Shown here one piece after another: positions 28,111 through 45,672 of a DNA stretch of 55,327 bases (the stretch's first letter is position 1; each line of letters starts with the position of its first letter). Origin of the DNA: an uncultured Adlercreutzia sp. (GTDB taxonomy: Bacteria > Actinomycetota > Coriobacteriia > Coriobacteriales > Eggerthellaceae); NCBI GenBank assembly GCA_910585575.1, contig CAJUFS010000011.1, positions 1 through 55,327 of the forward strand, read 5' to 3'. A program made the translations under genes and the position numbers. Below the pieces are notes generated by a model. That model searched no databases and had not been told where the DNA came from. It was given only the letters and a program-made list of their open reading frames with translations.

Positions 28111-28190
28111 GTTGGTGCGGCAGAAAACGTAGGCGACATTCCTCCAAGTTCCAAAACATCCAGGCAACATCCCCCCTAAGCTCCAGAACT

Positions 28191-28327
28191 AAGTTCCAGA
28201 ATCGGGCGGTTTGGTTCCCTCGTTGCCATGGAAGGTAAAAGCTGACCTGGTGTTTTACTCGTAATAAGTACCAAATCGACCGATTTTGGCTTCCCACAGG
28301 GAACCAAACCAGCCATTCCTGGAACCT
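28191..28327. repeat. Palindromic intergenic element, family B copy 2
   Basis: The arms 28191-28220 and 28298-28327 are 30 nt each and pair with a few mismatches (TTCCAGAA...GGTTTGGTTCCCT with AGGGAACCAAACC...TTCCTGGAA). The centre carries CTGACCTGGTGTTTTAC and CCGATTTTGGC, matched in copy 3. It lies 23 bp before element A copy 1. Confidence 0.75.
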
Positions 28328-28350
28328 AGGAGGGGCGCCTCCACCAGCAC

Positions 28351-28583
28351 CGCGCCCGCTTGCTCGGCCTTCGGCCTTGCGCGCGGTTGCTAGGCGATTG
28401 CGGGTTGCTCCACCAGTCCGCGGACGGGGGCGGTGTCCCGCTCCGGGCACGCGCCGCTCCGCTGCTCGCTTCGCTCGGGCGCTGCGCTCCCTCATGCTTT
28501 CACTTTGCGGCCTTCGGCCGCCTTTTCAAGGCAGTGTTCAGACGGTGCCCTCCGGGGACGCCGCCCCCGCCCGCTGCTCTGCC
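28351..28583 (+). repeat. 233-bp structured element, family A copy 1
   Basis: Nearly the same 233 bp recur at 45031-45263. The element contains a 5' GC-rich hairpin region (GGCC-TTC-GGCC within CGCGC...GCGCG), long arms 28420-28450 and 28545-28574 that pair, and an internal terminator-like hairpin GCGGCC-TTC-GGCCGC plus CTTTTC (28507-28526). Substitutions between copies keep base pairs. It could encode a structured RNA or be a mobile repeat; open reading frames across it are not credible. With B2 and two terminators it accounts for the whole 651-nt gap between 27999 and 28651. Confidence 0.75.
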
Positions 28584-28594
28584 ATATTTGCATA

Positions 28595-28624
28595 GAGGCC
28601 CCGTCGCCTGCGCGACGGGGCCTC
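28595..28624 (-). terminator. Terminator-like hairpin after fixX
   Basis: A perfect 13-bp stem GAGGCCCCGTCGC/GCGACGGGGCCTC with a 4-nt loop, 26 nt past the fixX stop. The T-tract on the minus strand is weak. Confidence 0.7.
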
Positions 28625-28650
28625 ACTTGGTTCCGCGGGTGTCCTTACTC

Positions 28651-28950
28651 TTACCCGAAGCGGTACTCCACTCCCATGGTGGGCTGGGGGTTCTCCCACT
28701 TCTTGACGATGGTGTCCTCGCAGGCGATGCGGCAGGTGCCGCACTCGAGGCAACCGGCGTAGTCGAAGCTGGTGGCGCCGTTCTCGTCGATCTTGTACAG
28801 GGCCGCGGGGCAGACGCGCACGAGCTTCTTGAATTCCTCGATGTCCGGATCCTCCACGAGCTCGATGTGGGCGTTCTCTTCGTCCACCTCGTACTTGTTC
28901 ACGGCGATGAGCTCGTCAACGTTCACCGTGATCGGTGCGATCTGACTCAT
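28651..28950 (-). CDS. fixX: Ferredoxin-like protein FixX
   Basis: A 99-residue ferredoxin partner of FixC. It has VRVCPAALYKID (Cys47) and the cluster motif CLECGTCRIAC (Cys67/70/73/77), as in FixX of E. coli and rhizobia. In FixABCX it takes part in bifurcating electron transfer. The ATG overlaps the fixC stop (ATGA), so translational coupling is likely. It is the last gene of fixABCX. Confidence 0.93.
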   Translation of the reverse strand: MSQIAPITVNVDELIAVNKYEVDEENAHIELVEDPDIEEFKKLVRVCPAALYKIDENGATSFDYAGCLECGTCRIACEDTIVKKWENPQPTMGVEYRFG

Positions 28951-30242
28951 AGGGCCTTCACCGCTCCTCTCATGTCGCGGGCCAGCTTGAACAGGCCGCG
29001 CTTCTTCACAATGGGCATGATGCGCTTGGTCAGGTGCTGCTGGGGCTGGCCATCCACGCAGAACATCGCGTTGAAGATCTCGCGCACCATGACCGGGTAG
29101 TCCGTGAACATGGCGTCCCACTCTTCCATGACGTGGGGCCACTTCTGGAAGGTCTCCAGGTCCTTGATGACGAAGGAGTTCTCCATGCGGGTCTTGTAGC
29201 CGTTAAGGCCCGCGGCGCTCGTGTCGCCGGCGTCCAGGGCCTCGACGGCGGCCTCGCCGGCCATGCGGCCGGAGGCCACGGCGAAGTCCATGCCGCGCAC
29301 CTGGTAGCCCATGTTCATGCACAGGCCCGCGGCCTCGCCGGCAACCAGGGCCCCGTCGAACACGTACTGCGGGATCATGTTGTAGCCGCCCTCGGGCACC
29401 ATATGGCCCGAGTGCTCCACCATCTTCGCACCGCGGATGATGGGCGCCACGGCCGGGTGGTTTTTGAAGTCCTCGAGCATCTGGTACACCGGCGTGGGGT
29501 TGTCGGCCTCGGCAGCCGTGGAGATAGTGGCCACGAGCCCCAGGCTGATGGAGTCCTTGTTCGTGTACAAAAAGCCGCCGCCCACCTTGCCGTGGGTGCA
29601 GTCGCCCACGAACAGCATGGCCGCGCCCTCGCCCTCGGGCACGAGGAACCGGTCCTCGATGACGTTCGCCGGAAGCTCGAACACTTCCTTGATGCCCACG
29701 GCCATCTGGTTGGCCTTCGGGCGCGGGTTGCCCAGGCTGCGCTCGCACAAGAGCGAGTTCACGCCCTCGGCCACGATGACCACCTCGGCGGTGATCTCGT
29801 CCTCGCCGGCGCGCACGCCGACGACCTTGCCGGACTCGTCGCGGATGAGCTCCTCCACGGCGATGCCGCAGATGTACTCGGCCCCGGCCTCCTCGGCCTT
29901 CTCGGCCAGCCACTGGTCGAAGGGCCCGCGCAGCACCGCGTAGGAGTCGGCGCCCTCGCGCGCCAGCTCGGGGCTGGTGAAGTCAACGGTCATGGATGAG
30001 GCGGGGTCCATCAGCGCGATGCGCTCGTGGGTGATCTTGCGCTCGAGCGGCGCCTCTTCCTCGAAGTTCGGGAACACCGGCTTCAGGGAATGGCTGTAGA
30101 TGCGGCCGCCGGTCATGTTCTTGGCGCCGGCGAAGTTGCCGCGCTCCACCACGAGCACGCTCTTGCCCGCCGAGGCCGCCGTGTAGGCCGCCACGGCGCC
30201 GGCGCAGCCAGAGCCGACGACGATGATGTCGAAGTCTGCCAC
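28947..30242 (-). CDS. fixC: FixC, Etf:quinone oxidoreductase-like flavoprotein
   Basis: A 431-residue FAD protein: a GxGxxG-type dinucleotide fold at the start (FDIIVVGSGCAGAVAAYTAA), then VLVVERGNFAGAKNMTGGRI and the C-terminal FAD contact LVAGEAAGLCMNMGYQVRGM. FixC is the soluble Etf-QO homologue of FixABCX. In enterobacteria that complex supplies electrons for carnitine reduction. FixB ends 25 nt upstream. Confidence 0.95.
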   Translation of the reverse strand: MADFDIIVVGSGCAGAVAAYTAASAGKSVLVVERGNFAGAKNMTGGRIYSHSLKPVFPNFEEEAPLERKITHERIALMDPASSMTVDFTSPELAREGADSYAVLRGPFDQWLAEKAEEAGAEYICGIAVEELIRDESGKVVGVRAGEDEITAEVVIVAEGVNSLLCERSLGNPRPKANQMAVGIKEVFELPANVIEDRFLVPEGEGAAMLFVGDCTHGKVGGGFLYTNKDSISLGLVATISTAAEADNPTPVYQMLEDFKNHPAVAPIIRGAKMVEHSGHMVPEGGYNMIPQYVFDGALVAGEAAGLCMNMGYQVRGMDFAVASGRMAGEAAVEALDAGDTSAAGLNGYKTRMENSFVIKDLETFQKWPHVMEEWDAMFTDYPVMVREIFNAMFCVDGQPQQHLTKRIMPIVKKRGLFKLARDMRGAVKAL

Positions 30243-30267
30243 TTCTCTCTCCTTTACCTTGGAAGGC

Positions 30268-31152
30268 CTACAGGGCCGCGATCACCGCGGGCATCACGTC
30301 GGCGATGTCGCCCACCAGGCCGTAGTCGCACTGCTTGAACACCGGCGCGTTCTTGTCCTTGTTGATGGCGAACACCGCGCCGGAGCGGTTGCAGCCCACC
30401 ATGTGCTGCATCTGGCCGGAAATGCCGCAGGCCACGTATACCTTCGGCGTGAGCATGAGGCCAGACACGCCCACGTAGGTGCTCTGGGGCATCCAGTCCA
30501 CGCCCTCGGTCAGCGGACGGGAGCAGGCCACGCCGCCGCCCAGCTTGTCGGCCATCTGACGGGCCCAGTCAAGCTGCGCTTCCTCGGTGAAGCCACGGCC
30601 AGCGGCCACCACGGCGTCAGCCTTGAACAGGTCCGCGCCGCCCTTCTCGCGCACACGGGAAGACTTCAGGCGCAGCGGCTTGGCCGGGGCCACCCAGGCG
30701 GCCTCCTCCACGGTGCCGGCACCGGACGGGGTGGCTTCGGCGAAGGTGCCGGGAGCCACGGTATAGAACGCCACGGCACCCGCGGGTTTCTGCACGCGCT
30801 CGCCCACGCCACCGAAGTACAGGCTCTCGGCGCCCTCGGAGGTGATGGCGCTCACGTCGGTGATGACCGAGGCGCCGACAGCGGCGGCCACGCGGCCCAC
30901 CACGGACTTCACGTGGCGGGTGGGTTCGGCCAGCACCACCTGCGGCTGCTCGGCATCGAAGACGGCCTGCACCGTGGCAGCGGCGTCGTCGGCCACCGCG
31001 CCCTCGGGCACGTTCACCACGACGGTCTTGTCAGAAGCGCCCTCGGGGGTGGCGCCGAAGGTGACGAGGACCACCTCGTCGGCCAGGGTGCGGGCGCCGG
31101 CGGCAAGCTCCACGGCGGCGTCGGAATGCTCGGCAATTACCAGTGCTTTCAT
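30268..31152 (-). CDS. fixB: FixB, Etf alpha-like subunit
   Basis: A 294-residue EtfA homologue: MKALVIAEHSDAAVELA, AAGRGFTEEAQLDWARQMAD, KVYVACGISGQMQHMVGCNR and AVFAINKDKNAPVFKQCDYG. These form the FAD site. It is distinct in sequence from the etfA at 18328 and pairs with FixA 42 nt upstream. Confidence 0.95.
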   Translation of the reverse strand: MKALVIAEHSDAAVELAAGARTLADEVVLVTFGATPEGASDKTVVVNVPEGAVADDAAATVQAVFDAEQPQVVLAEPTRHVKSVVGRVAAAVGASVITDVSAITSEGAESLYFGGVGERVQKPAGAVAFYTVAPGTFAEATPSGAGTVEEAAWVAPAKPLRLKSSRVREKGGADLFKADAVVAAGRGFTEEAQLDWARQMADKLGGGVACSRPLTEGVDWMPQSTYVGVSGLMLTPKVYVACGISGQMQHMVGCNRSGAVFAINKDKNAPVFKQCDYGLVGDIADVMPAVIAAL

Positions 31153-31194
31153 AATCAGCTCTGCCTTTCTTCTTGAATGAAAACGGGAATCGAC

Positions 31195-31950
31195 TTAGAG
31201 GGCGGCCTTCAGGGCGGCCACGAACTGCTCGATGGCGCCATCGGCGGAGGCGTCCTGCACGTTGCAGGCGCGCTCGGCCTGCTGCGGCGCGGCGCAGGAG
31301 ACTACCTCGATGGTGCGCTCGGCGGCCACGGGAGCGCCGGACACCTCCATGGGCTTCTTGCCGGCAGCCAGGATGTCCTTCATGCCGGGAATGCGGGGCT
31401 CGGCCACATCGGGAGACACGGCCACCACGGCAGGCAGCGGCACTTCCACTTCCTCGATCACGTCTTCCAAGGTGCGCTCCACCACAAGGGCGTCGTCGGC
31501 GGCCTCGATGCGGGTGACAGCGTTCACCGAGGGCACGCCCAGAGCCGCGGCCAGCTGCACGTCCACCTGCTGCGCGTAGTCGTCGGCCGAGCCGTCGCCG
31601 CACAGCACCACGTCGTAGTCCATCGTGCCCAGCACGGCAGCCAGCTGAGCGGCAGTGCCGTGGGCGTCCAGGCCGGCGCAGGCGTCGTCGGCCACCATGC
31701 GCAGCGTGTCGACGCCGCGGGCCAGCACGTTCTTCTTCAGCTTGGAGTCATCGATAGAGGCGTCGCCCACGGTCAAGGCGGTCACCGTGGAACCCGGGTT
31801 GGCAGCGGCCAGGGCCGCGGCCGCCTCGATGGCATTCAGGTCATAGGCGGACACAATGCCCTTGGCCTTCGAGAAATCCAGGGAGCGATCGGCACCGATC
31901 TGGATGTCCTGGTCGTCGGGCACCACCTTGAATGCTACGACAATGTTCAT
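31195..31950 (-). CDS. fixA: FixA, Etf beta-like subunit
   Basis: A 251-residue EtfB homologue beginning MNIVVAFKVVPDDQDIQIG, with SAYDLNAIEAAAALAAANPG and LPAVVAVSPDVAEPRIPG. The ATG at 31950 has AAAGGTG upstream; a 49-codon extension into the promoter region is rejected. It opens fixABCX, divergent from caiD across 295 nt that carry the 20-bp motif (32095-32114), the typical fix-cai divergent arrangement. Confidence 0.94.
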   Translation of the reverse strand: MNIVVAFKVVPDDQDIQIGADRSLDFSKAKGIVSAYDLNAIEAAAALAAANPGSTVTALTVGDASIDDSKLKKNVLARGVDTLRMVADDACAGLDAHGTAAQLAAVLGTMDYDVVLCGDGSADDYAQQVDVQLAAALGVPSVNAVTRIEAADDALVVERTLEDVIEEVEVPLPAVVAVSPDVAEPRIPGMKDILAAGKKPMEVSGAPVAAERTIEVVSCAAPQQAERACNVQDASADGAIEQFVAALKAAL

Positions 31951-32094
31951 CTGCGCACCTTTCTCTTCTTGCTTTCGCGAAATGAAACAACCTTGGTTCG
32001 TGAAGGAGCGCCGCTCTCTCTTCGACGCCGCTTCGTTGCCCCCATCTTCGCCCGCCGAGCGACCCCCGTCATCGCCAAAACCCCGTGAAACTCT

Positions 32095-32114
32095 CACTAC
32101 TTAAAAACATGCGA
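32095..32114. promoter_or_regulatory. 20-bp conserved motif in the fixA-caiD divergent promoter
   Basis: CACTACTTAAAAACATGCGA. The same 20 bases with one change (A to G) occur at 43402-43421 in the other divergent promoter of the carnitine locus. It lies 144 nt from the fixA start and 131 nt from caiD, a sensible place for a shared activator site. Confidence 0.6.
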
Positions 32115-32245
32115 CCCCTTATTACCTGGCGATTTACCCGATACGCAACAACTAGTGATGCCCTGTCAATACCGTCCCCGTACTATCGAAGAAGCGGTGC
32201 AAGAGGAGCACCGAGAAGGAACTGTCGCCCTATAAGGAGGAACGC

Positions 32246-33031
32246 ATGACTGATTACTTTGGTACCGACACCGTCGTATCCGAGCTGCGCGAGGACGGTC
32301 TGCTGATCATCCGCATCAACCGCCCCGATGTAGCCAACGCCCTGAACGGCGTGACCTCGGCTGCCATGGAGAACATCATGAACCACGCCGAGACCGATGC
32401 CGCCGTGCGCGCCATCATCGTCACCGGCACCGGCAAGGTGTTCTGCGCCGGCGAGGATCTCTCCGAGCTTTCCGAGGGCGGCGAGTGCCAGACCGTTACC
32501 GAGCACGGCTTCGGCGGCTTGACCGCGCGCCTGTGCTCCAAGCCCGTCATCTGCGCCTGCAACGGCTCGGCTGCCGGCGGCGGCATGGAGATCGCCCTGT
32601 CCTGCGACATGGTGGTGGCCGCCGAGAACGCGAAGTTCGGCTGCACCGAGGTCGGCCTGGGCATCATCGCCTCTACGGGCGGCATCGTGCGCCTGGCCCG
32701 CGACATCAACCGCAAGGACTGCATGGAGCTGCTGCTCACCGGCAAGAAGATCAAGGCCCCGGAGGCCAAGGCCCTCGGCCTCATCAACTATGTGGTGCCC
32801 GCCGAGGAAGTGCTCGACCGCGCCATCGAGCTGGCCGAGGAGTGCCTGAAGAACGCGCCACTGGCTCTGAAGTGGACCAAGTTCATCGTGCACGCCGCCG
32901 ACCAGATGTCCGAGGAGGACGCCATGCGCTTCTCCGACGCCGCCTACCGCTTCCTGGAGAAGACCGACGACGGCATCGAGGGCCCGGCCGCTTTCGTCGA
33001 GAAGCGCGCCCCCCACTGGACCGGCCGCTAA
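32246..33031 (+). CDS. caiD: Crotonobetainyl-CoA hydratase / carnitinyl-CoA dehydratase CaiD
   Basis: A 261-residue crotonase that interconverts L-carnitinyl-CoA and crotonobetainyl-CoA. Features: IIRINRPDVANALNG, GKVFCAGEDLSEL, NGSAAGGGMEIALSCDMVV and AKFGCTEVGLGIIASTGGI, so both catalytic glutamates (GME, CTE) are kept, unlike the crotonase at 8004. The C-terminus EGPAAFVEKRAPHWTGR matches the CaiD end I recall from E. coli (EGPLAFAEKRDPVWKGR). The start has TAAGGAGGAACGC upstream. Divergent from fixABCX. The C-terminal match makes CaiD better supported than a generic hydratase. Confidence 0.87.
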   Translation: MTDYFGTDTVVSELREDGLLIIRINRPDVANALNGVTSAAMENIMNHAETDAAVRAIIVTGTGKVFCAGEDLSELSEGGECQTVTEHGFGGLTARLCSKPVICACNGSAAGGGMEIALSCDMVVAAENAKFGCTEVGLGIIASTGGIVRLARDINRKDCMELLLTGKKIKAPEAKALGLINYVVPAEEVLDRAIELAEECLKNAPLALKWTKFIVHAADQMSEEDAMRFSDAAYRFLEKTDDGIEGPAAFVEKRAPHWTGR

Positions 33032-33130
33032 ACCAGGCGTCCGCTGCGGCCAGAGCATCCGTCGATGCTCAATGCTCGCGGATCAGCGCTCGCAATCCAG
33101 GGCGCGCCGCAAAAGCCACCGCCTTCCAGC

Positions 33131-33161
33131 AAAGAAAGCCCCGCAATGCGGGGCTTTCTTT
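33131..33161 (+). terminator. Intrinsic terminator after caiD
   Basis: A perfect 14-bp stem AAAGAAAGCCCCGC/GCGGGGCTTTCTTT with a 3-nt loop, usable in either direction. Confidence 0.9.
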
Positions 33162-33239
33162 ATGTTTGGATCCCCTCTATTCCCGTCTAACATGCGCGCA
33201 TTAGGGCGTATAGGATAAAAGTGCGTCCGATTTAGGGCG

Positions 33240-33690
33240 CTGACGCAGGTCAGCGTCCTATTTTTATGGAAAGGTCAATCGCGCTGACTTTTTCATTTGG
33301 ACAGAACGTGCGTCTAGATATCGGCTACGCTCCTGATGGGCTACGATAAGTCGCGTAGAGAAGTCGCTCCGAGCCAAGGGATTCCCGTGAAGACAAATTG
33401 GCCAATTAGAGACCGTTTTCCATTGCCTTTGCGTCAATAAGAGATTTCTGGCCAAGCACAACGCATTTTCCTTCAATTCTCTGGCCAAATGCAGGGCGTT
33501 TTCCATCCGTGTTTTTCAGCCCACACATAAAGCCTGGTCAAAACGTTAGGCTCCAAGAGAAGCTTTCTGCATTTTGCCGAAATTGAAGGAAATCGCACGC
33601 TGTTTGGCCATCAAGCGCCCTTTTTGCCCGCAAGAATGGAAAAGGGCCCTTGATTGGCCACTCGCAAGCAGGATTCTCCCCTATCGCGTT
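33240..33690. repeat. Gene-free region of degenerate GGCCAA/TTTTCC inverted repeats
   Basis: The 777-nt gap after caiD holds no credible gene. It has a GCGCTGAC-GCAG-GTCAGCG hairpin (33238-33258), three direct TGGCCAA-N-GCATTTTCC-like units (about 33397, 33452, 33482), an inverted counterpart GGAAATCGCAC...TTTGGCC (about 33590-33612) and a hairpin pairing TGGCCATCAAG with CTTGATTGGCCA (33606-33661). These resemble a decayed palindromic element, with echoes of the family B core (GGTCAG). Confidence 0.5.
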
Positions 33691-33733
33691 ACCTCCCCGA
33701 CAACTTCCATCCCCTCTCGGGGCTTAGAGGGGA

Positions 33734-33795
33734 TTCCCTGCTTCCCTGCTTCCCTGCTTCCCTGCTTCCCTGCTTCCCTGCTTCCCTGCTTCCCT
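33734..33795. repeat. 8-bp tandem repeat (TTCCCTGC x7 plus partial)
   Basis: Seven exact TTCCCTGC units (33734-33789) and a partial unit, just 14 nt past the stop codon of the minus-strand MFS gene. Pure tandem array without spacers; prone to slippage. Confidence 0.95.
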
Positions 33796-33808
33796 TTGCG
33801 CCCTTTTC

Positions 33809-35224
33809 CTATAGGCGGCTGGCCTCGGCGAGGGACTGGCCGCGGGTCTCTGGAGCCATAGCAACCGAGAGCCCCAGGCCCAGCAGTACCAAGGCGGCGG
33901 CCACCAGCATGGTGGGGCCTACGCCGAACGCGGCCAGGAACAGCGGCGTGCCGTAGGTGGACACGATGGTGCCGATGCGCGAGATGCCGATGGCAACGCC
34001 CACGGCCGTGGCGCGCACCTCGGTGGGAAACAGCTCGTTGGGATAGAGCCACTGCAGAATGCCCGGGCCACCGCTAAAGAACGCGTACAGCCCGAACGCC
34101 AACACGATCACCCAGATCGGCGCCGTGGGGAACACGCCTAGGATCACCAGGCCCACGGCCATCAGGGCCAGCGACCTGATCAGCAGGGGTCGGCGCCCCA
34201 GGGAATTCAGCCAGAACATGGCGGGCACGGTGCCGATGAGGAAGAAGAGGCTCACCACGGCCTCGCCTAGGATGGCGTCGTCGCCCTGGCCCAGACCGAA
34301 GGCACTCATAATGTCTGGGCCGAAGGTGTAGATAGCATACATGGGCACCACCTGACACAGCGTGAGAATACCCAGGTACACGATGCGCTTGCCGTAGCCG
34401 CCGCGGAATACTGCCAGAATGCTCGTCTTGGCTTCGGGCGCCTCCACTTCGAGCACCACGCCCTCGCCGAACACGCGCTCCACTACCTCTTCGGACTCGC
34501 GCACGCGTCCCTTGGACAGCAGCCATAACGGCGACTCGGGGATATCGTGACGCCCCACCAGCAAGATCACGCAGGGCACGACCGCCGAGCCCAGCATCCA
34601 CTGCCAGCCATTCTCGACGCCGTACAGGAAAAAGCCCACGAAGGCCGCCGCCGTGGCGCCTAGATACCACGCCGCCGACACCATGCCCATGGACACCGAG
34701 CGATGCTTCTTGGGCGTGAACTCGGCAATAAGCGAGGTAGCGATGGGATAGTCGGCGCCCACAAACACGCCGATGAAGAAGCGCGCGGCCACCAGCTGCC
34801 AAGGCTCGGTGCAGAACACACTCAGCAGCGAGAACAACCCGATGGCCACCAAATCGATGATGAACATCTTCTTGCGTCCAATAAGGTCGGTCAAATAACC
34901 TCCCCCGATGGTACCCACGAAGATGCCCACCAGCACCGAAGCACCGATTGCGGCACTCCATGCGTCGGAAAGGCCGAACTGCGGAACAATCTGCGTCAGG
35001 GCCACGCCGATAAGCGACAGGACATAGCCGTCGAGGAAGGCGCCCCCGCTCGAGAAGAGCGTGATCTTGCGCAGAAACGGCGTCATGGCCACGTCGTCCA
35101 TGGTCTTCTTGGCTGTGCGCTTCACGCGCTGGGCCATCTCGCCGCTCATCTCGCGCACGCACTCCCCCGCCTCGCCAGCCGGGGGGCTGACCACCTGCGT
35201 TGCCGCTTTCACGTTCGAAGCCAT
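33809..35224 (-). CDS. MFS transporter, sugar/aromatic-acid porter type
   Basis: A 471-residue integral membrane carrier. A 50-residue hydrophilic N-terminus is followed by about 12 helices. Family signatures: GGGYLTDLIGRKKMFIIDL (loop 2-3), AEFTPKKHRS, PESPLWLL after helix 6, FPTEVRATAVGVA and PETRGQSLAEAS at the end. It is the last gene of the carnitine operon. Import of carnitine or export of gamma-butyrobetaine is inferred from position only; MFS members also carry carnitine in eukaryotes. The stop codon is beside the TTCCCTGC tandem repeat. Confidence 0.85.
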   Translation of the reverse strand: MASNVKAATQVVSPPAGEAGECVREMSGEMAQRVKRTAKKTMDDVAMTPFLRKITLFSSGGAFLDGYVLSLIGVALTQIVPQFGLSDAWSAAIGASVLVGIFVGTIGGGYLTDLIGRKKMFIIDLVAIGLFSLLSVFCTEPWQLVAARFFIGVFVGADYPIATSLIAEFTPKKHRSVSMGMVSAAWYLGATAAAFVGFFLYGVENGWQWMLGSAVVPCVILLVGRHDIPESPLWLLSKGRVRESEEVVERVFGEGVVLEVEAPEAKTSILAVFRGGYGKRIVYLGILTLCQVVPMYAIYTFGPDIMSAFGLGQGDDAILGEAVVSLFFLIGTVPAMFWLNSLGRRPLLIRSLALMAVGLVILGVFPTAPIWVIVLAFGLYAFFSGGPGILQWLYPNELFPTEVRATAVGVAIGISRIGTIVSTYGTPLFLAAFGVGPTMLVAAALVLLGLGLSVAMAPETRGQSLAEASRL

Positions 35225-35438
35225 GGGATGCTCCTTTCTGCCGGCCTATCGCGGCAGCCTCGCTTGCTGCCAACGTCTCATGGCAGCTTTGTCTACGACT
35301 GCCGTCATCGGGCAGCCGTTTTGTTGAACCCTGCCACCTTCTTGCGGCAGCACCATCCTTCAATCCGTGAATTGCTCACGCGAGAAAGGGTGTGCCCTTC
35401 CAGAGCGCCGCGATTCGCAAACCCAAAGGACGGCAACC

Positions 35439-36311
35439 CTACTCCCACTCGACGATGCCGTAGTTTAGGTGCGGCTTCGCGCCCGTCTCGTCGGCATCGG
35501 CGTCCACCAGCTGGAAGCGAACTTCCTTCTCCCCCACTTGCCACATACGGGTCTCAAGCGTCGTGCCCGGCAGCACCGGCGAGGTGATGCGCGTCTTGAA
35601 GCGACGCAGGCGCTCGGGCTCACCGGGGAAGAACGCGCTAATCACATGGCGCATGGAGAAGCCGCCCAGGGCCACGCCATGGGCGATGGGCCGCGCCAGG
35701 CCCGTTTGCTCGGTGTAGGCAAAGTCGATGTGCTGCTGGTGCCAGTCGCCCATGAGGCGGTAGATAAGCGGCATGTTGAGCGCCATGGTCTCGCGCACCA
35801 CGACATCGGGCGCGCCTTCGGGCATCTCCACGCGATCGGCCGGCGGCTTCGGGCCGCCCCAGCCGCCGTCGTAGATGCATACGTCCCAGGTCTCGGTCTC
35901 GCACGCCAGCACGCCATCAGAGCGGTAGGAGCGGCCCGTCTGCTTCGACAGGCAACCGCGCCCCTCGCCGCGGTCGTACAGAGCATCTTGAGTGACAAAC
36001 GTCTCAATGCGGTCGTTCATGAAGAACGGCGCGTGCACCCGCAGCTCGAAGCCGTAGTGCAGCGAGCCGTCGTAGTTGTAGCCGTAGTCCAGGGTGCGGG
36101 TCATCTCCTCGTGCACTGTCAGCGGCACACCGAAGATGGGCAGCACCTTCAGCGATGGCGTAGCCGCATCGTGCTCGTTCACATACTGCAGGTCGGTGAC
36201 GCCGTCGTAGGCCGCGTTGCAGCCGAGCGCGCAAATCTCCAGGTCTCGGAAGGTATACTCCCGCACGAAGGGACCGAATTCCTTGCCGACGATAGCGGTG
36301 CTGATACTCAT
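35439..36311 (-). CDS. MaoC-like double-hotdog dehydratase family protein
   Basis: A 290-residue protein with two hotdog domains. The second half carries LMGDWHQQHIDFAYTEQTG then ARPIAHGVALGGFSMRHV, in which Asp and His keep the D-x4-H spacing of the R-specific hydratase motif (GDxNPxH), with NPx replaced by HQQ. It should hydrate or dehydrate a CoA thioester. It lies 19 nt after caiC, with AAGGAGGAG before its ATG. E. coli cai has no such gene, so it may widen the substrate range or handle a different stereochemistry; unproven. Confidence 0.8.
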   Translation of the reverse strand: MSISTAIVGKEFGPFVREYTFRDLEICALGCNAAYDGVTDLQYVNEHDAATPSLKVLPIFGVPLTVHEEMTRTLDYGYNYDGSLHYGFELRVHAPFFMNDRIETFVTQDALYDRGEGRGCLSKQTGRSYRSDGVLACETETWDVCIYDGGWGGPKPPADRVEMPEGAPDVVVRETMALNMPLIYRLMGDWHQQHIDFAYTEQTGLARPIAHGVALGGFSMRHVISAFFPGEPERLRRFKTRITSPVLPGTTLETRMWQVGEKEVRFQLVDADADETGAKPHLNYGIVEWE

Positions 36312-36329
36312 GGGTCTCCTCCTTCGCGC

Positions 36330-37925: not shown

Positions 37926-37962
37926 GGCCCTGCTCCTCCTCTCGGCTCTCGTTTGCGAATAG

Positions 37963-39177
37963 CTACTCGGCGACCTTCACCACACCGTCAGCGGCCAACT
38001 GGTCGATCTGCTCGCGGGTGTAGCCGAGCTTCGTCAGCACATCCACGGTGTCGCCGCCGTGCTCGGGCATGGGACGCCAAATCTGGCCCGGGGTCTGCTC
38101 GAAGCGGGGCATCGGGGACAGGCCCTTGAAGGTCTCGCCGTCCTTGGTCTCCCACTCCACGAAGTTGCCGCGGGCGGCCATGTGCGGATCGGCCACCATG
38201 TCCTCGAACTCGTAGACGCTCTGGGCGGCGATGGCATGCTCGGCCAGGATGTCCTCCAGCTCGGTCTTGGTGCGCTCGGCAAGCCACGCCTCCAAGCGCT
38301 TCTCGAACTCCTCGGCGATGGGCATGGACAGCCACAGCGATGCGGTGTCCTCGGGCAGGTCGGGGGTTCCCCACTGATCGCCCAGGCCCAGCTCCTCGAT
38401 AATCCACTTGTTCTGGCGAATGCCGAAGAGGTTGAGCGCGATGAAGCCGTCGGCGCACTTGTACACGCCGATGCCGCACAGGTTCTGGTTGCGGGCGCCG
38501 GCGCGCGGCCACTTGATGCCCTCGTTCAAGAAGTCCACCAGGTAGTACTGGCTCATGTACATGATGCCCTCGTACATGGCCCAGTCGATGGACTCGCCCT
38601 CGCCGGTGCGCTCGGCCTTGCGCAGGGCGGCCAGCGAAGCGGCAATGAGCAGGTAGGAGTTGATGTAGTCGCCGGAGTAGGGCATGGTGATCATGGGCTG
38701 CTCAGGCGTGCCGTTCTGGCAGGTGAAGCCGGCGTAGGGGCCCACGGTGCCGTCATAGGCAGGGCGCTTCACGCGGTCGGGGTCGCCGAACTTGCCGAAG
38801 CCGGAGCAGTGCACGATGATGAGCTTCGGGTTCACGGCCCACATATCCTCATCGGTAAAGCCCTTGCGATCCCAGGTGCCGCCCTTAGAGGACTCGAAGA
38901 AGATGTCGGTGTCCTTCAGCATCTTCAGCAGCACTTCCTTGCCCTCGGGCGTGAACTGGTTCAGACCCACAGAGCGGCAGTTGCGGCGCTCGGCCTGAGC
39001 GGCGTTCTTGGCATCGCGCACGGTGTCACCGTAGCCGGTGTTCTCCAGCCAGGTCACATCGGCGCCCCAGTCGGCCATGATGTTGCAAGCACGGGGAATA
39101 GCCTCCTCCATAGCCGCAAAGACAACCTTCACATCATCGAGAACGCCAAACGAAGGCTTTTCAGTAGGCAGAGACAT
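37963..39177 (-). CDS. caiB: Crotonobetainyl-CoA:carnitine CoA transferase CaiB
   Basis: A 404-residue type III CoA transferase that exchanges CoA between gamma-butyrobetaine or crotonobetaine and carnitine. It matches E. coli CaiB along its length: VKVVFAAMEEAIPRA, ADWGADVTWLEN, NPKLIIVHCSGFGKFG, GEGESIDWAMYEGIMYMSQY and PGQIWRPMPEHGGDT. The nucleophile aligns to Asp170 in MPYSGDYINS (Asp169 in E. coli, PYTADYF). The start has AAAGGAAC upstream. Compared with the transferase at 5701 it belongs to a different branch. Confidence 0.95.
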   Translation of the reverse strand: MSLPTEKPSFGVLDDVKVVFAAMEEAIPRACNIMADWGADVTWLENTGYGDTVRDAKNAAQAERRNCRSVGLNQFTPEGKEVLLKMLKDTDIFFESSKGGTWDRKGFTDEDMWAVNPKLIIVHCSGFGKFGDPDRVKRPAYDGTVGPYAGFTCQNGTPEQPMITMPYSGDYINSYLLIAASLAALRKAERTGEGESIDWAMYEGIMYMSQYYLVDFLNEGIKWPRAGARNQNLCGIGVYKCADGFIALNLFGIRQNKWIIEELGLGDQWGTPDLPEDTASLWLSMPIAEEFEKRLEAWLAERTKTELEDILAEHAIAAQSVYEFEDMVADPHMAARGNFVEWETKDGETFKGLSPMPRFEQTPGQIWRPMPEHGGDTVDVLTKLGYTREQIDQLAADGVVKVAE

Positions 39178-39246
39178 AGGTAGTTCCTTTCTTAGGGATG
39201 GAAGCCCATGCGAATAGGCAACCGTTCAACAAGAGAAGAGTTCAGA

Positions 39247-39356
39247 GGGGACACCGGGTGTGCCGACCGAGCGAGTTCCGCACGAGCCGAACAGCCCACT
39301 GGGCTGTTCGCGCGAGCCCAGGACTGTTTGAGCGAATCGGCATACCCGGTGGCCCC
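39247..39356. repeat. 110-bp palindromic element, family C copy 2
   Basis: It has the same length and plan as copy 1 at 12985-13094: a shared GGGTGTGCCGACCGAGCGAG, an inner hairpin CGAACAGCCCA/TGGGCTGTTCG and a right end TCGGCATACCC. It lies inside the carnitine operon, in the 247-nt gap between caiA and caiB. Confidence 0.75.
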
Positions 39357-39424
39357 GACGGGCGAAGGGCTTCAACCCCCTAGCCCCGACCGGCGAGGAG
39401 CTTCGAGCCCTTCGCCAAACGCCA

Positions 39425-40573
39425 CTACTGCTTGTACTTCTTGCAGGCACCCTTGGCGGTGGCCAGAATCATCATCTCGTCGGTGCCACCGGACACGCGG
39501 TCGACGCGCAGGTCGCGCCAGATGCGGTTGATGCGATGCTCGCTGGCCACGGCGATGCCGCCCATGACCTGCATGGCGTCATCGGTCACCTCGAAGGAGG
39601 CGTTGGCGCAGTAGTACTTGCACATGGCGGCGGCCGCAGCGTCGAAGTTACCGCCGTTGTTGTCGGCGTTCCAAGCGGCCTCGTAGAGCATGTTGCGCAT
39701 GTTGGTCAGCTTGATGCACATCTCGGTGATCTTCAGAGAGTTCAGCTGGAAGCGGCTGATGGGCTTGCCGAAGGCGATGCGGGTGTTGGCATGCTTCATG
39801 GCGTCCTCGAAAGCGCAGATAGCGGTGCCGTAGTCGCAGGCGCCTACCAGCCAGCGCTCGAAGTTGAAGTCGGACACGCCGCGCATGAAGCCGTTGCCCT
39901 CCTGGCCGAAGATGTCGGACTCTTCCAGCTCGACATTATCCAGGTACACCTCGCAGCAGCTGTCCATGCGCAGACCCAGCTTCGGCAGCGGCGAAAGCTT
40001 CACGCCGGGCTTGGACATATCCACGAAGAACTCGGTGAACACCGACTCGTCATCGGCGTTCTTCGCCATGATGACCAGGTACTTCACGCCAGCCGAGGAG
40101 GTAATGAAGGTCTTGGTGCCGTTCAGGTAGATCTTGCCGTTCTCGCGCTTGTAGGTGGTGGACAGGGCGCCCACGTCGGAGCCGGCGCCCGGCTCGGTGC
40201 AAGCGGAGTTCCAAATCTGCTCACCAGAGCCCAAGGTGCACATCACGGCCTCGATCTGCTCGGGCGTGCCCTCGCGAATGATGGTCTCAAAACCGGGCAG
40301 CTGGTACAGCACGTAGGTGGGGGCGCCGTAGCGGCCCAGCACCTCGTAGACGGCCATCAGGGTCACGCAGGGCTGATCAAGGCCCAGGCCGCCCTCGGCC
40401 TCGGGCAGCATGATCTGGTCGAAGCCCAACTCGCACAAGCCCTTCACCCAACGAAGCGGATACTCGTGTTTCTCGTCGCACTCGTGGAAATAAGTCTCCC
40501 AGTTCTCGCTTTCCATGTACTCGCGATAGCTGTCGACAATCAGCTCCTGCTCGTCAGTGAGTCGGAAATCCAT
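39425..40573 (-). CDS. caiA: Crotonobetainyl-CoA reductase CaiA
   Basis: A 382-residue ACAD-family flavoprotein that reduces crotonobetainyl-CoA to gamma-butyrobetainyl-CoA. It follows E. coli CaiA closely: [108 protein letters not shown] and [16 protein letters not shown]. As in E. coli the canonical Glu is Gly in the last motif. The start has AAAAGGAGAAG upstream. FixABCX is the expected electron donor. Confidence 0.96.
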
Positions 40574-40652
40574 GTTCTTCTCCTTTTCAGATAGTCAGTG
40601 GCTTTGATTACAGCGGGGCGTGGGCCGCTCGCTGGAAAACCCGAGGAACGTC

Positions 40653-41654
40653 TTAGGCCAGGCCCAAGGTCTCGCGGTAGAAGGTGGCGCCGTGCTCAAG
40701 CGCGTCGTTGGCGGCGTCCAGCATCTTGGTGTAGTGAAGGAAGGCGTGGATGACGCCCTCGAACACCTCGTGGCGGCAGGGAATGCCGTACTGCTCGCAG
40801 ATAGCGGCCAGGCAGGCCGAGTCGTCGCGCAGCGGGTCGAACTCCGCTGCGGCGATGTAGCAAGCGGGCACGTCGTGGGTCAAATCGTTCAGGAACAGGT
40901 TGGCGTAGGGCTCATTGGCCAGAGCGGCCGGGTCGGCGGCGTACAGGTTCAGATAGAACTGCCAATCCTCCTCGGCAAGGCCGTCCCAGGGACCGCCCAA
41001 AAGGCGCATGGAGGCGGAATCGGTCAGACCGAACCAGCCGTAGAACAAAAGCAGGCACTTCACAAAGGCCGCTCCCCCGCCCTCGTTGCGCAGGTACAGC
41101 GTGGCCGCCAGGTTCAAGTGAGCCCCGCCCGAGTCGCCGGCAAAAGCCAAGCGCTCGCCATCGATGCCCCAAGCCGCGCCCTCGCGATGCAAGAAATCGG
41201 CCACCGCCGCCACCTCCCGCACGGCGCTGGGATACTGGGCCTCAGGCGACAGACGGTAGTCAACGGCCACCACGGGCACGCCCGTGCGCTCGGCCAGAAT
41301 GCGGCAGATGCGGTCATGGGTGTCCAAGTTGCCCAGGACGAAGCCGCCGCCGTGCACGTAGATGATGGCCGGCTGAACATCGCCCTTCCCGTGAGCCGCC
41401 GCGGTGGCAGCGCCCGTCGGATCGTAGCGACGCATGGGAATGTCGCCGAAGGGACCGGCGACGACATCGTCGGTAACCGCGGCCATGCTCGGCGCTCCCT
41501 CGTTCCACCAGGCACGTCCCGCCACGTAGTTCTCGCGCATCGGGGCGAACCCGGCGCTCGTGTCGTTCGCGTCGCCGGCCAGCTCGTCCTCGCGGGCCAG
41601 CACCGCCTTCATCTGCGGGCAAATGCGGGCAAGGACGTCGATCTTGTTGGGCAT
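40653..41654 (-). CDS. Alpha/beta hydrolase, hormone-sensitive-lipase (HSL) family
   Basis: A 333-residue esterase-type protein. The oxyanion motif YVHGGGFVLG, the nucleophile elbow FAGDSGGAHLN, the acid in AAEFDPLRDD and the His in VIHAFLHY make a full Ser-Asp-His triad. No signal peptide is seen. The ATG at 41654 has AAAGGAG upstream. It sits between caiA and an MFS gene in the carnitine operon. It might release carnitine from acylcarnitines (O-acyl esters) before reduction. That is inference; a stray esterase is possible. Confidence 0.87.
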   Translation of the reverse strand: MPNKIDVLARICPQMKAVLAREDELAGDANDTSAGFAPMRENYVAGRAWWNEGAPSMAAVTDDVVAGPFGDIPMRRYDPTGAATAAAHGKGDVQPAIIYVHGGGFVLGNLDTHDRICRILAERTGVPVVAVDYRLSPEAQYPSAVREVAAVADFLHREGAAWGIDGERLAFAGDSGGAHLNLAATLYLRNEGGGAAFVKCLLLFYGWFGLTDSASMRLLGGPWDGLAEEDWQFYLNLYAADPAALANEPYANLFLNDLTHDVPACYIAAAEFDPLRDDSACLAAICEQYGIPCRHEVFEGVIHAFLHYTKMLDAANDALEHGATFYRETLGLA

Positions 41655-41833
41655 GGCGCAACTCCTTTGCAATAGATGCTCGGTGCGGAGAAAGCGGAGC
41701 CGGTGGGCCGGAGGCGCGACCGGCTCGCGGTCGAAAGGCGACTCCCGTGCGGTTAAGGCGCAGGGACTGCCGAGGAAGGTGGCGCGGCAACCGAGGGGTT
41801 GGAGTCGATCGCCGCGCCGATACAGGGGTGGGC

Positions 41834-43180
41834 CTAGACGGTGGCCTCGCCGCCAGCGATCTGGGCAGCCTCGGCCTCTTCAGCCGCATTCTGGGTGCCC
41901 GCCTCGCCGGTACCGAAGTGCTTCTTGATGGAGCGGAGCAGCATGATCAGGCAGATGCAGCCGATGACGCCGAACATGATCTCGAAGCCGAAGATGCTCG
42001 TGTAGGCGTCGATGCCCTGGGCGTCGATCATGCCGCCGTACCAGGTGTGGATGAACACGTCGGGCAAGAAGCCGATGACGGAGAGCAGACCGGCAGCGGT
42101 GCCGAAGATGCGCATCGGGATCTTGATCTCGGACAGCGGCGAGGAGCCGATGGAGAAGGCGCCGTAGGTGGTGAAGCCGAACACAACAACCAGCACAGCG
42201 GCCACGGTGGCAGCACCGGGATCATGCGGGAAGAGAATGAAGCCCACCAGCACGGCGATGGACAGGATGAAGCCGCCGAGGATGACCTTGGAGGGGCTCT
42301 TCAGCTTCGTGGCCAGCCAGCCAACGATGGGGCCGGCGATCAGGCCGATACCATAGGTACGAATAAGACCGATGACGTTCACCAGGTTGCCGTCGGCGTC
42401 GAAGCACTGGGTCAGGTACGGGGTGGTGTAGGTAGCGCCCTGGTACACGGCGTACACGCAGAAGTAGGCGATGCAGGCCCAGATAACGCCCGGGTGCTTG
42501 ATGGCCTCGACGGCCTCCTTCAGGCTGAACAGCTTGGCGTCCTTGTTGATCTCGCCCTTGAAGTCGGGGATCAGGAAGATGGAGGCCACGCCCAGCACGG
42601 CAATGATGACAGCCAGGAAGATAAGCATGACCTGCACGCCCTGCACTACGTTGGAAATGGCAGCGATGATGCCAGCGTTGATGAGGCCGATAACCAGACC
42701 GGTAACACCATAGATGGAGTAGCTGATACCGATCTTGCTAGCGTACTCGTCTTCCTCGCAGCACAGACGGATTACCTTGAAGCGGGTGCCCCACCACACC
42801 AGGATGGAGGTCACGCCCATGAGCACGAACAGCACCAGGCAGATGGTGACCGACGGCAGCATGGCGTACACGCCCACCAGCACGGCCGTGGCCAAGAAGC
42901 CGCCCGTGGCCAAGGTGCGCATGCGGAACTTGTCAGCCACGATGCCCGAGGGCAGGTAGCAGATCATGGCGGCAATGCCGTAGGCCGACACCATGAGGCC
43001 CAAGTCGGCGTTGGTGCAGCCGAGGGCCTGCATCAGCGGATCGTAGAACACATTCTTAAGATACATAGGCGCGTAAATGATCGACGAGCCCATGGAAATG
43101 AGCACCACGAGGGCCCACTTGTGGAGCGACGTCAAATCCTTGTACGTCACTTCCCCTTTGCTTTTCGCAAGCAACGACAT
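41834..43180 (-). CDS. MFS transporter (carnitine locus, first gene of the operon)
   Basis: A 448-residue membrane protein with about 12 helices and a loop 2-3 DKFRMRTLATGG. Other visible segments are GTRFKVIRLCCEEDEYASKIG and a central loop FKGEINKDAKLFSLKEAVEA. The C-terminal tail is Ala/Glu-rich (AAEEAEAAQIAGGE). It is the first gene of the caiA-caiB-caiC operon and divergent from the LuxR gene, which suggests a role in substrate uptake or product exchange in place of the absent CaiT. The upstream 366 nt hold the 20-bp motif and no gene. Confidence 0.85.
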   Translation of the reverse strand: MSLLAKSKGEVTYKDLTSLHKWALVVLISMGSSIIYAPMYLKNVFYDPLMQALGCTNADLGLMVSAYGIAAMICYLPSGIVADKFRMRTLATGGFLATAVLVGVYAMLPSVTICLVLFVLMGVTSILVWWGTRFKVIRLCCEEDEYASKIGISYSIYGVTGLVIGLINAGIIAAISNVVQGVQVMLIFLAVIIAVLGVASIFLIPDFKGEINKDAKLFSLKEAVEAIKHPGVIWACIAYFCVYAVYQGATYTTPYLTQCFDADGNLVNVIGLIRTYGIGLIAGPIVGWLATKLKSPSKVILGGFILSIAVLVGFILFPHDPGAATVAAVLVVVFGFTTYGAFSIGSSPLSEIKIPMRIFGTAAGLLSVIGFLPDVFIHTWYGGMIDAQGIDAYTSIFGFEIMFGVIGCICLIMLLRSIKKHFGTGEAGTQNAAEEAEAAQIAGGEATV

Positions 43181-43322
43181 GACAGTGCTTCCTTTCTCTC
43201 AGGACGCCCGGCCCTTCGCCGGGCTTCGCCGGTTCTTGCGACCCCCGCCGCAATACCGACTGAACTGATGAGAATTCTGCCGACCCGTCAATAAGACGCC
43301 ATCACTCGTTGTCTGCGAAAAC

Positions 43323-43344
43323 CCACTTACCTAAATTCTTGCGA
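43323..43344. promoter_or_regulatory. Degenerate second copy of the 20-bp motif
   Basis: CCACTTACCTAAATTCTTGC followed by GA resembles the motif at 43402-43421 (ends CCACT and TTGCGA kept, two extra bases). It may be a second half of a regulator site array. Confidence 0.3.
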
Positions 43345-43401
43345 GCCCCTCTTCCAAGAACTACACCGCATTTTTCCATCGCAAAAACGGGGGTAAACCG
43401 C

Positions 43402-43421
43402 CACTACTTAAAAACGTGCGA
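43402..43421. promoter_or_regulatory. 20-bp conserved motif in the MFS-luxR divergent promoter
   Basis: CACTACTTAAAAACGTGCGA, 19 of 20 identical to 32095-32114. It lies 126 nt before the LuxR start and 221 nt before the MFS start. A site shared by both divergent promoters of the carnitine locus suggests control by the adjacent LuxR protein. Confidence 0.6.
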
Positions 43422-43546
43422 TGCCTCGATGAGGCTCACCACCCTATACTCAACTCTAGACTTGGCTGGTATGATCGCATTGGGAAATCCTGGCGTACCG
43501 AAATCGCCCCAGCCATCCGAACGAGCTTGAGCGTGAAGGAAGATAC

Positions 43547-45010
43547 ATGAATGCCAGCGCCGCCGAACCTGCTATTCAGTCCCCCGTGCCCCGTGTTTTT
43601 CAAGGAACCATCCTCGACCGACCCCTCTTCAAATATGTAGGGTTCGCCCTGTTGCTCTCATGGCACTACGTGTTCTGGTTCGTTCCTTCCATTTTCACAT
43701 CCGTGAACCTGATGGATGATCGCGTTACCTACTCATGGCTCACCAACTTGCTTGCGACCGCCGTGTTCGCCTTCGCCTTCGCCCTCATTCTGGGACGCAA
43801 GCGCCACCTTTCGTCTTGCATGCCCATCGTCGTGGCGGCTCCCCTGGCTTTGGCCCTTGGATCTTTTGCGTTGGCCGCTCTCCCCTTCGATTACGTTCCC
43901 AGCTTTCTGTGGTACACCTTAGTCGTGGCCCTCGGCGCCTGCGAGTCGATCTTCTGGATTCTATGGGGCGAGCGCTTCGCCTGCGAGAAAGCGAACTTCT
44001 CCATCCGCCACATCGGCACCACCTTCGGCCTCACGCTGCTGTGCTCTATCGCCGTCGCCCACTTCTTGCCGGCTTGGCTGACCGCTCCGTTTGCAAGCCT
44101 CCTTCTGGTAGCCTCGGGCGCTCTGCTCTTCGCCGCCTGCCGCAACGGCAGCACAACCTTCCCTGTGCTGCTGCCGCGCAATGCCGCCATGGGCGGTGTG
44201 CGCAACATGCTCATGGTGGGGCTCCTCACGCTGTTCGCCACGGCCGCCTGCTACTTCCTGGTTGCCATCATTCCCTGGGAAGAGCTGCCCTTCGCCGACC
44301 ATTCGTTCACCGTCGGCATTCTTTTGGGTGCGCTGTTCATGCTCGTCATTGGCGGCGCAGCATTCCTGGCCAAAGACAAGCTCAACGCTTTTAAGATCTA
44401 TCCCTGGCTCTTCGTGGCTGTCATCTTCGCCTACGCCCTTTTTCTGGCTGACCATTACTTCTACGCGGGCGCCTTCGATATCGGCGTCGGGCTCTCTTCC
44501 ATCTTCGAAGTCCTGCTGATCATGTACTTCGGCATTCTGATCACCAAGGGCTACGTCACCGCCTCGATGGGCTTCGCCTGCTCCTGCGGATTCGCGCGGC
44601 TGGGGAAGTGCCTTGGCAACACTCTGGCGGTTTCTTACGAGAGCATGCCCGACGTCGCCCTTGCCTACACGCCCGAAACAGCCCTTGCTTTCATGTGCCT
44701 GCTGGCCGCTCTGATCATTCCCCTCGTGCGGCAGGAGTTCAGCATTATTGCGCTTACCACTCTGGCGCCTACTCGAAGCGAGATCGAGGAGATCTGCGCC
44801 GAGGCCGCTAAGGAATTCAGCCTGTCGAGCCGCGAGGAAGACGTGCTGCTGCTTATCGCCCGCGGCTACACCACCAAGGCCATCGCCGACAAGCTGGTGC
44901 TGTCTCCCTACACGGTGAACACCCACATCCGCCACATCTACGACAAGATGCAAATCCACAAGCGCAGCGAGCTCATCAACTACCTCAACATGCAGCGCAG
45001 CGACTTTTAA
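43547..45010 (+). CDS. Membrane-spanning LuxR-family transcriptional regulator
   Basis: A 487-residue regulator. About 12 hydrophobic helices fill residues 20-410, an MFS-like sensor-sized domain with no recognised signature, and the last 62 residues are a LuxR HTH: LSSREEDVLLLIARGYTTKA, IADKLVLSPYTVNTHIRHIY. The N-terminus is cytoplasmic. Such proteins are abundant in Eggerthellaceae and often sit beside the genes they control. This one is divergent from the cai operon and shares its 20-bp motif with the fix-caiD promoter. Ligand and mode of action are unknown. Confidence 0.88.
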   Translation: MNASAAEPAIQSPVPRVFQGTILDRPLFKYVGFALLLSWHYVFWFVPSIFTSVNLMDDRVTYSWLTNLLATAVFAFAFALILGRKRHLSSCMPIVVAAPLALALGSFALAALPFDYVPSFLWYTLVVALGACESIFWILWGERFACEKANFSIRHIGTTFGLTLLCSIAVAHFLPAWLTAPFASLLLVASGALLFAACRNGSTTFPVLLPRNAAMGGVRNMLMVGLLTLFATAACYFLVAIIPWEELPFADHSFTVGILLGALFMLVIGGAAFLAKDKLNAFKIYPWLFVAVIFAYALFLADHYFYAGAFDIGVGLSSIFEVLLIMYFGILITKGYVTASMGFACSCGFARLGKCLGNTLAVSYESMPDVALAYTPETALAFMCLLAALIIPLVRQEFSIIALTTLAPTRSEIEEICAEAAKEFSLSSREEDVLLLIARGYTTKAIADKLVLSPYTVNTHIRHIYDKMQIHKRSELINYLNMQRSDF

Positions 45011-45030
45011 GCGGGCTGTCCTATCTGGGC

Positions 45031-45263
45031 CGCGCCCGCTTGCTCGGCCTTCGGCCTTGCGCGCGGTTGCTAGGTTGTTCCGGGTTGTTCCACTGGTCCG
45101 CGGGCGGGGGCGGTATCCCGCTCCGGGCACGCGCCGCTCCGCTGCTCGCTTCGCTCGTGCGCTGCGCTCCCTCATGCTTTCAACTGGCGCCCTTTGGGCG
45201 CTTTTCTTTTTTGGTGTTCAGACGGTGCCCTCCGGGGATACCGCCCCCGCCCGCTACTCTGCC
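45031..45263 (+). repeat. 233-bp structured element, family A copy 2
   Basis: It starts 20 nt after the luxR stop and has the same length as copy 1 at 28351-28583. Long arms 45100-45130 and 45225-45254 pair, with GCGGGCGGGGGCGGTATCCC exactly complementary to its partner. The internal terminator-like hairpin is GCGCCC-TTT-GGGCGC then TTTTCTTTTTT (45187-45211), which may also end the luxR transcript. Confidence 0.75.
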
Positions 45264-45329: not shown

Positions 45330-45464
45330 GGTTCCAGAATTGAGCGGTTTGGTTCCCTCTTCAATATTGAGGTGCATATCCGACCTGGGGTTTTGCCAAG
45401 CACCGATACCGAACTGCCCGATTTTGGCGCTCATCGGAGAACCAAACCGCTCAATTCTGGAACC
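45330..45464. repeat. Palindromic intergenic element, family B copy 3
   Basis: The outer 26 bases are a perfect inverted repeat (45330-45355 with 45439-45464: GGTTCCAGAAT...GGTTTGGTTC). The centre holds CGACCTGGGGTTTTGC and CCGATTTTGGC, shared with copy 2. It lies 67 bp after element A copy 2. Confidence 0.8.
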
Positions 45465-45593
45465 TGGCTGCCGCGCCCGTGTCTCGGTTCGCTAAAAATG
45501 TTCTGAAAAGCACGGTTTAGCAGGTGAATGACCCCGTTTGCTACTCTCAGCTTCTGGCTCATCTGGGAAAACGCACCTCCTGCCGAATCTCCT

Positions 45594-45639: not shown

Positions 45640-45672
45640 AATTCCCGGCACCCGGCCGCAAGCGAACGCAAA

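Follow-up and report, generated by a model that had tools for sequence, protein, structure and literature searches.

A candidate family of non-autonomous structured repeats with a conserved core and freely varying paired arms in Eggerthellaceae

The window analyzed here, a 55,327-nucleotide contig from an uncultured Adlercreutzia sp. of the Eggerthellaceae (GenBank assembly GCA_910585575.1, contig CAJUFS010000011.1), carries two copies of a repeat in which long paired arms enclose a conserved core. An initial annotation, made from the letters of the contig alone, had placed copies of a 233-bp element at positions 28351-28583 and 45031-45263. Both coordinates are right, and the two stretches are each 233 bp long and 88% identical. 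The conserved unit, however, comprises only ~165 bp of each, the first ~65 bp forming a separate 5′ hairpin module (Table 1). Only some copies of the repeat are preceded by this module, which the nearest relative lacks at the site orthologous to copy 2; it may thus be gained and lost independently. Copy 1 is flanked by an acyl-CoA dehydrogenase gene and by minus-strand open reading frames (ORFs), the first of 163 amino acids, with no Pfam match, and the next an FAD oxidoreductase gene. Copy 2 sits behind a gene whose product has a LuxR-type C-terminal domain, and the gene that it faces encodes an AMP-binding enzyme. Neither copy falls within conserved coding sequence, a location that would have spoken against a structured element; both are intergenic.

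Table 1 Parts of the two repeat copies in the window (P1, closing stem; P2 and P3, inner hairpins; R1, covariance model of the core)
Feature	Position	Strand	Remarks
Conserved unit, copy 1	28416-28580	+	~165 bp
5′ hairpin module, copy 1	28351-28415	+	common to copy 2 and some other copies; outside the conserved unit
P1 5′ arm, copy 1	28416-28453	+	duplex with 3′ arm -59.9 kcal/mol; 0/25 foreign 3′ arms as good
Core, copy 1	28454-28542	+	P2 28468-28474, P3 28507-28521, linkers; alignment A3
Hairpin P3, copy 1	28507-28521	+	GCGGCC-TTC-GGCCGC
P1 3′ arm, copy 1	28543-28580	+	arm-swap pairing test
Conserved unit, copy 2	45096-45260	+	~165 bp
5′ hairpin module, copy 2	45031-45095	+	orthologous site of the nearest relative without module
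P1 5′ arm, copy 2	45096-45133	+	duplex with 3′ arm -65.6 kcal/mol; 2/25 foreign arms as good
Core, copy 2	45134-45222	+	P2, P3, linkers; R1 match 96.5 bits
Hairpin P3, copy 2	45187-45201	+	GCGCCC-TTT-GGGCGC; matched swap versus copy 1 and versus its own orthologue
P1 3′ arm, copy 2	45223-45260	+	arm-swap pairing test

Read on the plus strand, the unit consists of the P1 5′ arm, CCGCTYCGCTRYTC, hairpin P2, TCRKGCGCTKCGCTSCYTCATG with a short linker, hairpin P3, a linker (T-rich or of mixed composition) whose end reads RGYGTTCAGA, and the P1 3′ arm. An alignment of 26 copies from the window's own genome has 44 core columns without any variation and another 6 with almost none (~50 conserved bases). 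The closing stem P1, by contrast, averages ~25 Watson-Crick pairs whose position is fixed while their sequence is nearly free, and it often contains a small internal loop close to the core. P2 reads GC-TTC-GC in many copies and is extended into long stems in other genera (for example in L086, L107, L109-L111, and L094). P3 mostly spans 5-10 bp with a loop of three or four bases; our automatic P2 finder often picked another hairpin, and only the P3 figures from that count are used. The T-rich tract that the initial annotation described after P3 is present in a subgroup of copies but lacking in many. Two variants stand apart: in L109 (5533-5679, minus strand) P3 holds a nested stretch, itself a long hairpin, as though another sequence had inserted there, and at L004 (1440-1492) a truncated copy comprising the 5′ arm and first core repeat lies in tandem directly ahead of a full copy. 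A small minus-strand peptide starting at an ATG in the core was dropped on sight, as length variants shift its frame.

The repeat occurs at 29 places in the 2.76-Mb genome of the window by BLAST. A covariance model of the core (R1), built on an alignment of 26 copies with 10 base pairs, detects 28 copies there and scores the core of copy 1, which is among the sequences used to build it, at 101.1 bits. The initial annotation had proposed a covariance search for further copies, and this search yields many covarying, intergenic ones: besides the 28 in the window's genome, R1 matches occur in 35 of 138 Eggerthellaceae genomes (17 of 48 genera). Across the order, 35 of 395 genomes match, all of them within Eggerthellaceae; both wide searches ran stricter filters, with the loss of weak matches. 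Copy numbers are uneven, with 28 in the window's genome (G000), 20 in its nearest relative (G008), 14 in G093, 10 in G050, and 1-6 in each of the remaining 31. A scan of genome contigs with an exact degenerate motif returned 46 stretches, all in records labeled Eggerthellaceae or Coriobacteriaceae, from Adlercreutzia, Enterorhabdus, Gordonibacter, Enteroscipio, and uncultured relatives. One query each against plasmid and phage collections gave no match. Rfam 15 gave no match at the gathering threshold across the whole window, and a search of six loci with E up to 1 gave four sub-threshold matches, none covering the element core. Chance is excluded because the copies form a family, with 29 BLAST and 28 R1 matches in one genome and own arms that out-pair swapped arms. 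Multi-copy, intergenic, sharing a common fold, and present or absent between relatives, they belong to the general class of interspersed structured intergenic repeats. We tentatively propose that they constitute a new family of non-autonomous structured repeats, confined as far as searched to Eggerthellaceae, which are gut Actinobacteria.

The arms of the two window copies pair as originally described. GGTATCCC/GGGATACC in copy 2 becomes GGTGTCCC/GGGACGCC in copy 1, with one A-T pair changed to G-C and one T-A pair to T.G, and P3 differs between the copies by a matched G-C to C-G swap. As RNA, the plus strand folds better than its dinucleotide shuffles in both copies (copy 2, z -4.6; copy 1, z -2.4); the copy 1 minus strand gives -2.5. 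Exchanging 3′ arms among the 26 copies of the window's genome weakens the closing stem from a mean of -63.1 kcal/mol for own arms to -38.6 kcal/mol for swapped arms, and none of 10,000 permutations pairs as well. For 18 of the 26 copies no foreign 3′ arm is as good as their own. The other eight have at least one, because similar arms exist in other copies or their own stem is imperfect.

Pairing in the core was followed in alignment A4, which has 85 distinct rows. None of its 500 P3 cells is unpaired, and 102 carry changes on both sides; A4 was model-fitted to the structure, which favors this result, and its rows are related. For the whole 10-pair structure, all 500 shuffles fall short of the observed value on each of five measures, and the signal collapses when the register is slid. 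RNAalifold applied to a MAFFT alignment (A1) returned a poor fold because the variable arms were misaligned, and it was discarded for a hand-specified core structure and per-copy arm tests. Covariation of pairs, as expected of a functional structured RNA, is present by these measures.

Orthologous sites show how the arms change over time. Between thiC and thiM the element occupies a common site in G056/G057 and in G079, which belong to different genera (ThiC 86% identical over 451 residues). Of its 29 P1 pairs, 17 are the same in both, 10 differ at both positions yet remain Watson-Crick, one is A.C, and one is broken. At a site behind a Clp-type AAA gene in four species, only one species has a good P1; the other three have poor stems with one-sided transitions, which argues against strict selection at every site. 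At the common site of L021 and L133, both arms have been rewritten together: own duplexes reach -72.7 and -79.3 kcal/mol versus -46.9 and -47.8 for crossed arms, within flanks that are 88-92% identical.

The initial annotation had suggested selection on RNA structure, or a structured RNA family. This is not shown by the data, in which wobble pairs are rare and pointers to the strand conflict. Read on the plus strand, single P1 mismatches with three pairs on each side comprise 23 G.T, 45 A.C, and 42 others, the A.C being 45 G.U on the minus strand. The count covers 94 stems from a set of 101 non-redundant arms, seven with weak stems having been left out. In 31 of the 45 A.C cases the A lies in the 5′ arm, and these account for most of the imbalance between G.T and A.C (binomial p 0.010; 23 and 44 distinct contexts), so a mutational cause is possible, and an earlier, smaller set showed no bias (16 G.T versus 21 A.C). 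Eight local tRNAs, used as a control, have nine G.U and no A.C, and the one-strand wobble tolerance of tRNA is not seen in P1 or P3 of the element. We refrain from calling it an RNA family mainly because wobbles are rare compared with this small tRNA control. C-GNA-G loops are unusually stable in DNA, and of 82 P3 loops, 65 have the form GNA or GNRA when read on the minus strand. With DNA folding parameters the minus strand is the better one for 88 of the 101 full elements and, when the core is folded alone, for 78 of the 101; with RNA parameters the full elements are near even (minus better in 60 of 101).

Copies often lie just behind genes. In the window's genome, the distance to a gene end is at most 60 nt for 15 of 28 copies and the distance to a gene start for one; the corresponding counts are 10 and none of 20 in the nearest relative and 21 and two of 35 sites in other genomes. 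Genes were called, in place of annotation, with a simple script that missed the 163-amino-acid ORF beside copy 1, and five orthologous duplicates were removed from the 40 "other" rows, some related sites and inverted pairs remaining among the 35. Only three of 83 elements fall inside a called ORF. The upstream genes are unrelated: the 10 proteins examined include ThiC, a Clp-type AAA ATPase, S-adenosylmethionine (SAM) synthetase, adenylosuccinate synthetase, and an aminotransferase. Several copies lie between co-directional genes, namely thiC-thiM (ThiC/hydroxyethylthiazole kinase), metK-priA, purA-purD, and argininosuccinate synthase-lyase. Among the matches listed, all eight close inverted pairs are arranged plus-then-minus (seven of seven if the look-alike G082/G084 pairs count once), and two close same-direction pairs are also present.

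A flank comparison with the nearest relative pairs 16 of the 28 copies to a site, 11 of them by both flanks; 17 were paired at first, and L028/L117 was removed for unlike near flanks. At a single site the two genomes differ by the gain or loss of a copy. The gap between the argininosuccinate synthase and lyase genes measures two bases (by eye) in the nearest relative and 211 with the element in the window's genome, the flanks being 95-96% identical. L003 and L011 have identical arms and cores in different flanks. A second candidate empty site, that of L023, is too diverged for a clean junction. For copy 1, another species offers no more than a suggestive empty site: its flanking genes adjoin each other, and the matches stand 236 bases apart versus ~650 here. 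The empty site and the unrelated neighboring genes lend support to a mobile structured repeat, the other possibility raised by the initial annotation.

Both window copies adjoin members of a second repeat family of ~135 bp (28189-28329 and 45330-45464), which has multiple copies both in the window's genome and in that of its nearest relative. These repeats have long inverted ends of their own (26 nt, 100% complementary, at 45330-45464; 32 nt, 81%, at 28189-28329). A short near-perfect palindrome, matching itself on the opposite strand at 92%, lies at 45593-45640.

In kind, the element comes closest to bcr-type repeats, miniature inverted-repeat transposable elements (MITEs), and repetitive extragenic palindromic (REP) elements. 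Repeats of the bcr1 type in the Bacillus cereus group are described as ~150 bp, intergenic, and dispersed, with a predicted fold and often located in untranslated regions (UTRs) or operon gaps (PMC3446304, PMC2267715). The element resembles them, by description, as a dispersed, intergenic, MITE-like folded repeat of similar size, but it belongs to another phylum and has almost unconserved closing arms and a three-helix core. REP elements are described as 20-40 bp, GTAG-tagged, and proposed to shield mRNA 3′ ends (PMC3733652). Like REPs, which are moved by Y1 transposases (RAYTs), the element is palindromic, extragenic, near gene ends, and in part arranged in inverted pairs, and many copies start with GTAG on the minus strand (by eye), although others have no GTAG foot. 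Unlike REPs, it measures ~165 bp, with a ~25-pair P1 and a conserved core, and the two most copy-rich genomes hold no Y1 match. The same source characterizes MITEs of the ERIC, NEMIS, and RUP type as non-coding, 70-300 bp, multi-copy, and transcribed with their neighbors, with MITE terminal inverted repeats of 15-30 bp. The element is likewise non-coding, multi-copy, and within this size range, but where classical MITEs have conserved terminal inverted repeats its paired arms are the least conserved part and its core the most. Among the best-ranked results of literature text searches, no paper dealt with such a repeat in this bacterial group. A survey of human microbiomes that reports 3161 candidate RNAs does not mention Adlercreutzia or Eggerthella in its main text (PMC8040213), and an unnamed earlier prediction of the element within that set is possible.

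The element is dispersed, folds, changes in pairs, and has been gained or lost at one site. We read it, as the best though still tentative explanation, as a REP/MITE-like non-autonomous structured repeat that would be recognized by its fold plus its core. Such an element could spread as a folded strand, perhaps as minus-strand single-stranded DNA, and a missing or hypothetical enzyme would recognize the fold together with the core, so the arms may drift while still pairing. P1 and P3 may be kept matched by selection, aided by template-switch repair of the palindrome, and a copy that stays behind a gene might additionally act on transcript 3′ ends.

Part of the evidence weighs against this reading. 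The clean empty site shows no evident target-site duplication, and its insertion edges are not sharp. Y1 transposases (PF01797) have no matches in the window's genome (~90% complete) or its nearest relative, although a lost or distant enzyme could have escaped this search; G093 and G050 have one match each with no demonstrated link to the element, and eight of 16 searched genomes have one. In 12 of 14 orthologous pairs (L012, L016, and L028 were left out) own arms have little or no advantage over crossed ones, and joint rewriting is therefore rare over such times; the arms of these 12 are too little diverged to reveal rewriting, and the remaining case besides L021/L133, L018/L116, possibly does not involve one and the same copy. 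That the element has persisted at thiC-thiM with a conserved core, in low-copy genomes, suggests host benefit and not only spread. Further points concern the strand: the P3 wobbles (4 of 500 cells) are all G.U on the plus strand, a possible 4-bp core helix (CGCT with RGYG) reads G.U or G.C on that strand, RNA parameters fold the plus strand better for the core in 77 of 101 copies, and in the other genomes a sense upstream stop lies within 60 nt at 20 of 35 sites versus an antisense downstream stop at four of 35, which points toward a role in the transcript. Loop type and DNA energies thus point to the minus strand, and gene orientation outside the copy-rich genomes, the core helix, and core RNA energies to the plus strand, and these pointers conflict.

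The same plus-strand pointers would be accounted for by a functional RNA, a possible but less probable explanation in which a 3′-UTR or intercistronic element is transcribed with the upstream gene and, through its three-helix fold, either protects the 3′ end of the mRNA or serves as a protein-binding site. Copies standing right behind stop codons between co-directional genes fit this proposal, as do the core conserved at the fixed thiC-thiM site and the P1 changes compensated there across genera. The scarcity of wobbles in P3 and the P1 mismatch spectrum, set against that of tRNA, argue the other way, and orientation within 60 nt is balanced in the copy-rich genome of the window (7 sense, 8 antisense). 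No sigma-70-like site lies near the window copies, although none would be needed under read-through from the upstream gene.

Integron attC sites are recognized as folded strands with sequence-variable paired arms. The element would share these traits with attC, but its core is far larger. By this analogy it might be a mobile element that a strand-specific enzyme of Eggerthellaceae recognizes by fold and not by end sequences, the substrate being a single strand with sequence-free paired arms and the core of ~50 conserved bases, with copies adopted as lasting parts of operons; we consider this rather unlikely.

Alternatively, pairing could be kept by mutation and not by use, template switching copying one arm onto the other so that covariation is a by-product of an old repeat. 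Template switching, described for hairpins (PMC8794818), can keep stems paired without wobble intermediates. The jointly rewritten arms of L021/L133, which changed over a short time, the near absence of P3 intermediates, and the lack of bias toward plus-strand wobble in P1 would all follow. The conserved core, the common architecture in all genera examined, and the universal pairing of P3 would be left unexplained, and P1 at the Clp-gene site, which is poor in all but one of the four species, resembles uncorrected decay; we regard this explanation as quite unlikely. An ordinary intrinsic terminator formed by P3 and a T tract is highly improbable: copy 2 scores terminator-like and a subgroup of copies has T tracts, but copy 1 does not score, the single hit of copy 2 equals the shuffle average, many copies have no T tract, and a stop at P3 would leave the P1 3′ arm untranscribed. 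Rho utilization sites were also considered and remained speculation.

In this family a single fold recurs in about a hundred distinct copies whose stems are almost free in sequence, and both orthologous sites and one empty site are on record. It cautions that strong covariation by itself is no proof of RNA. A family of this kind makes a long-standing question testable, namely to what extent compensation in stems is due to selection and to what extent to template switching, and it offers a handle on structured repeats that spread without an enzyme of their own.

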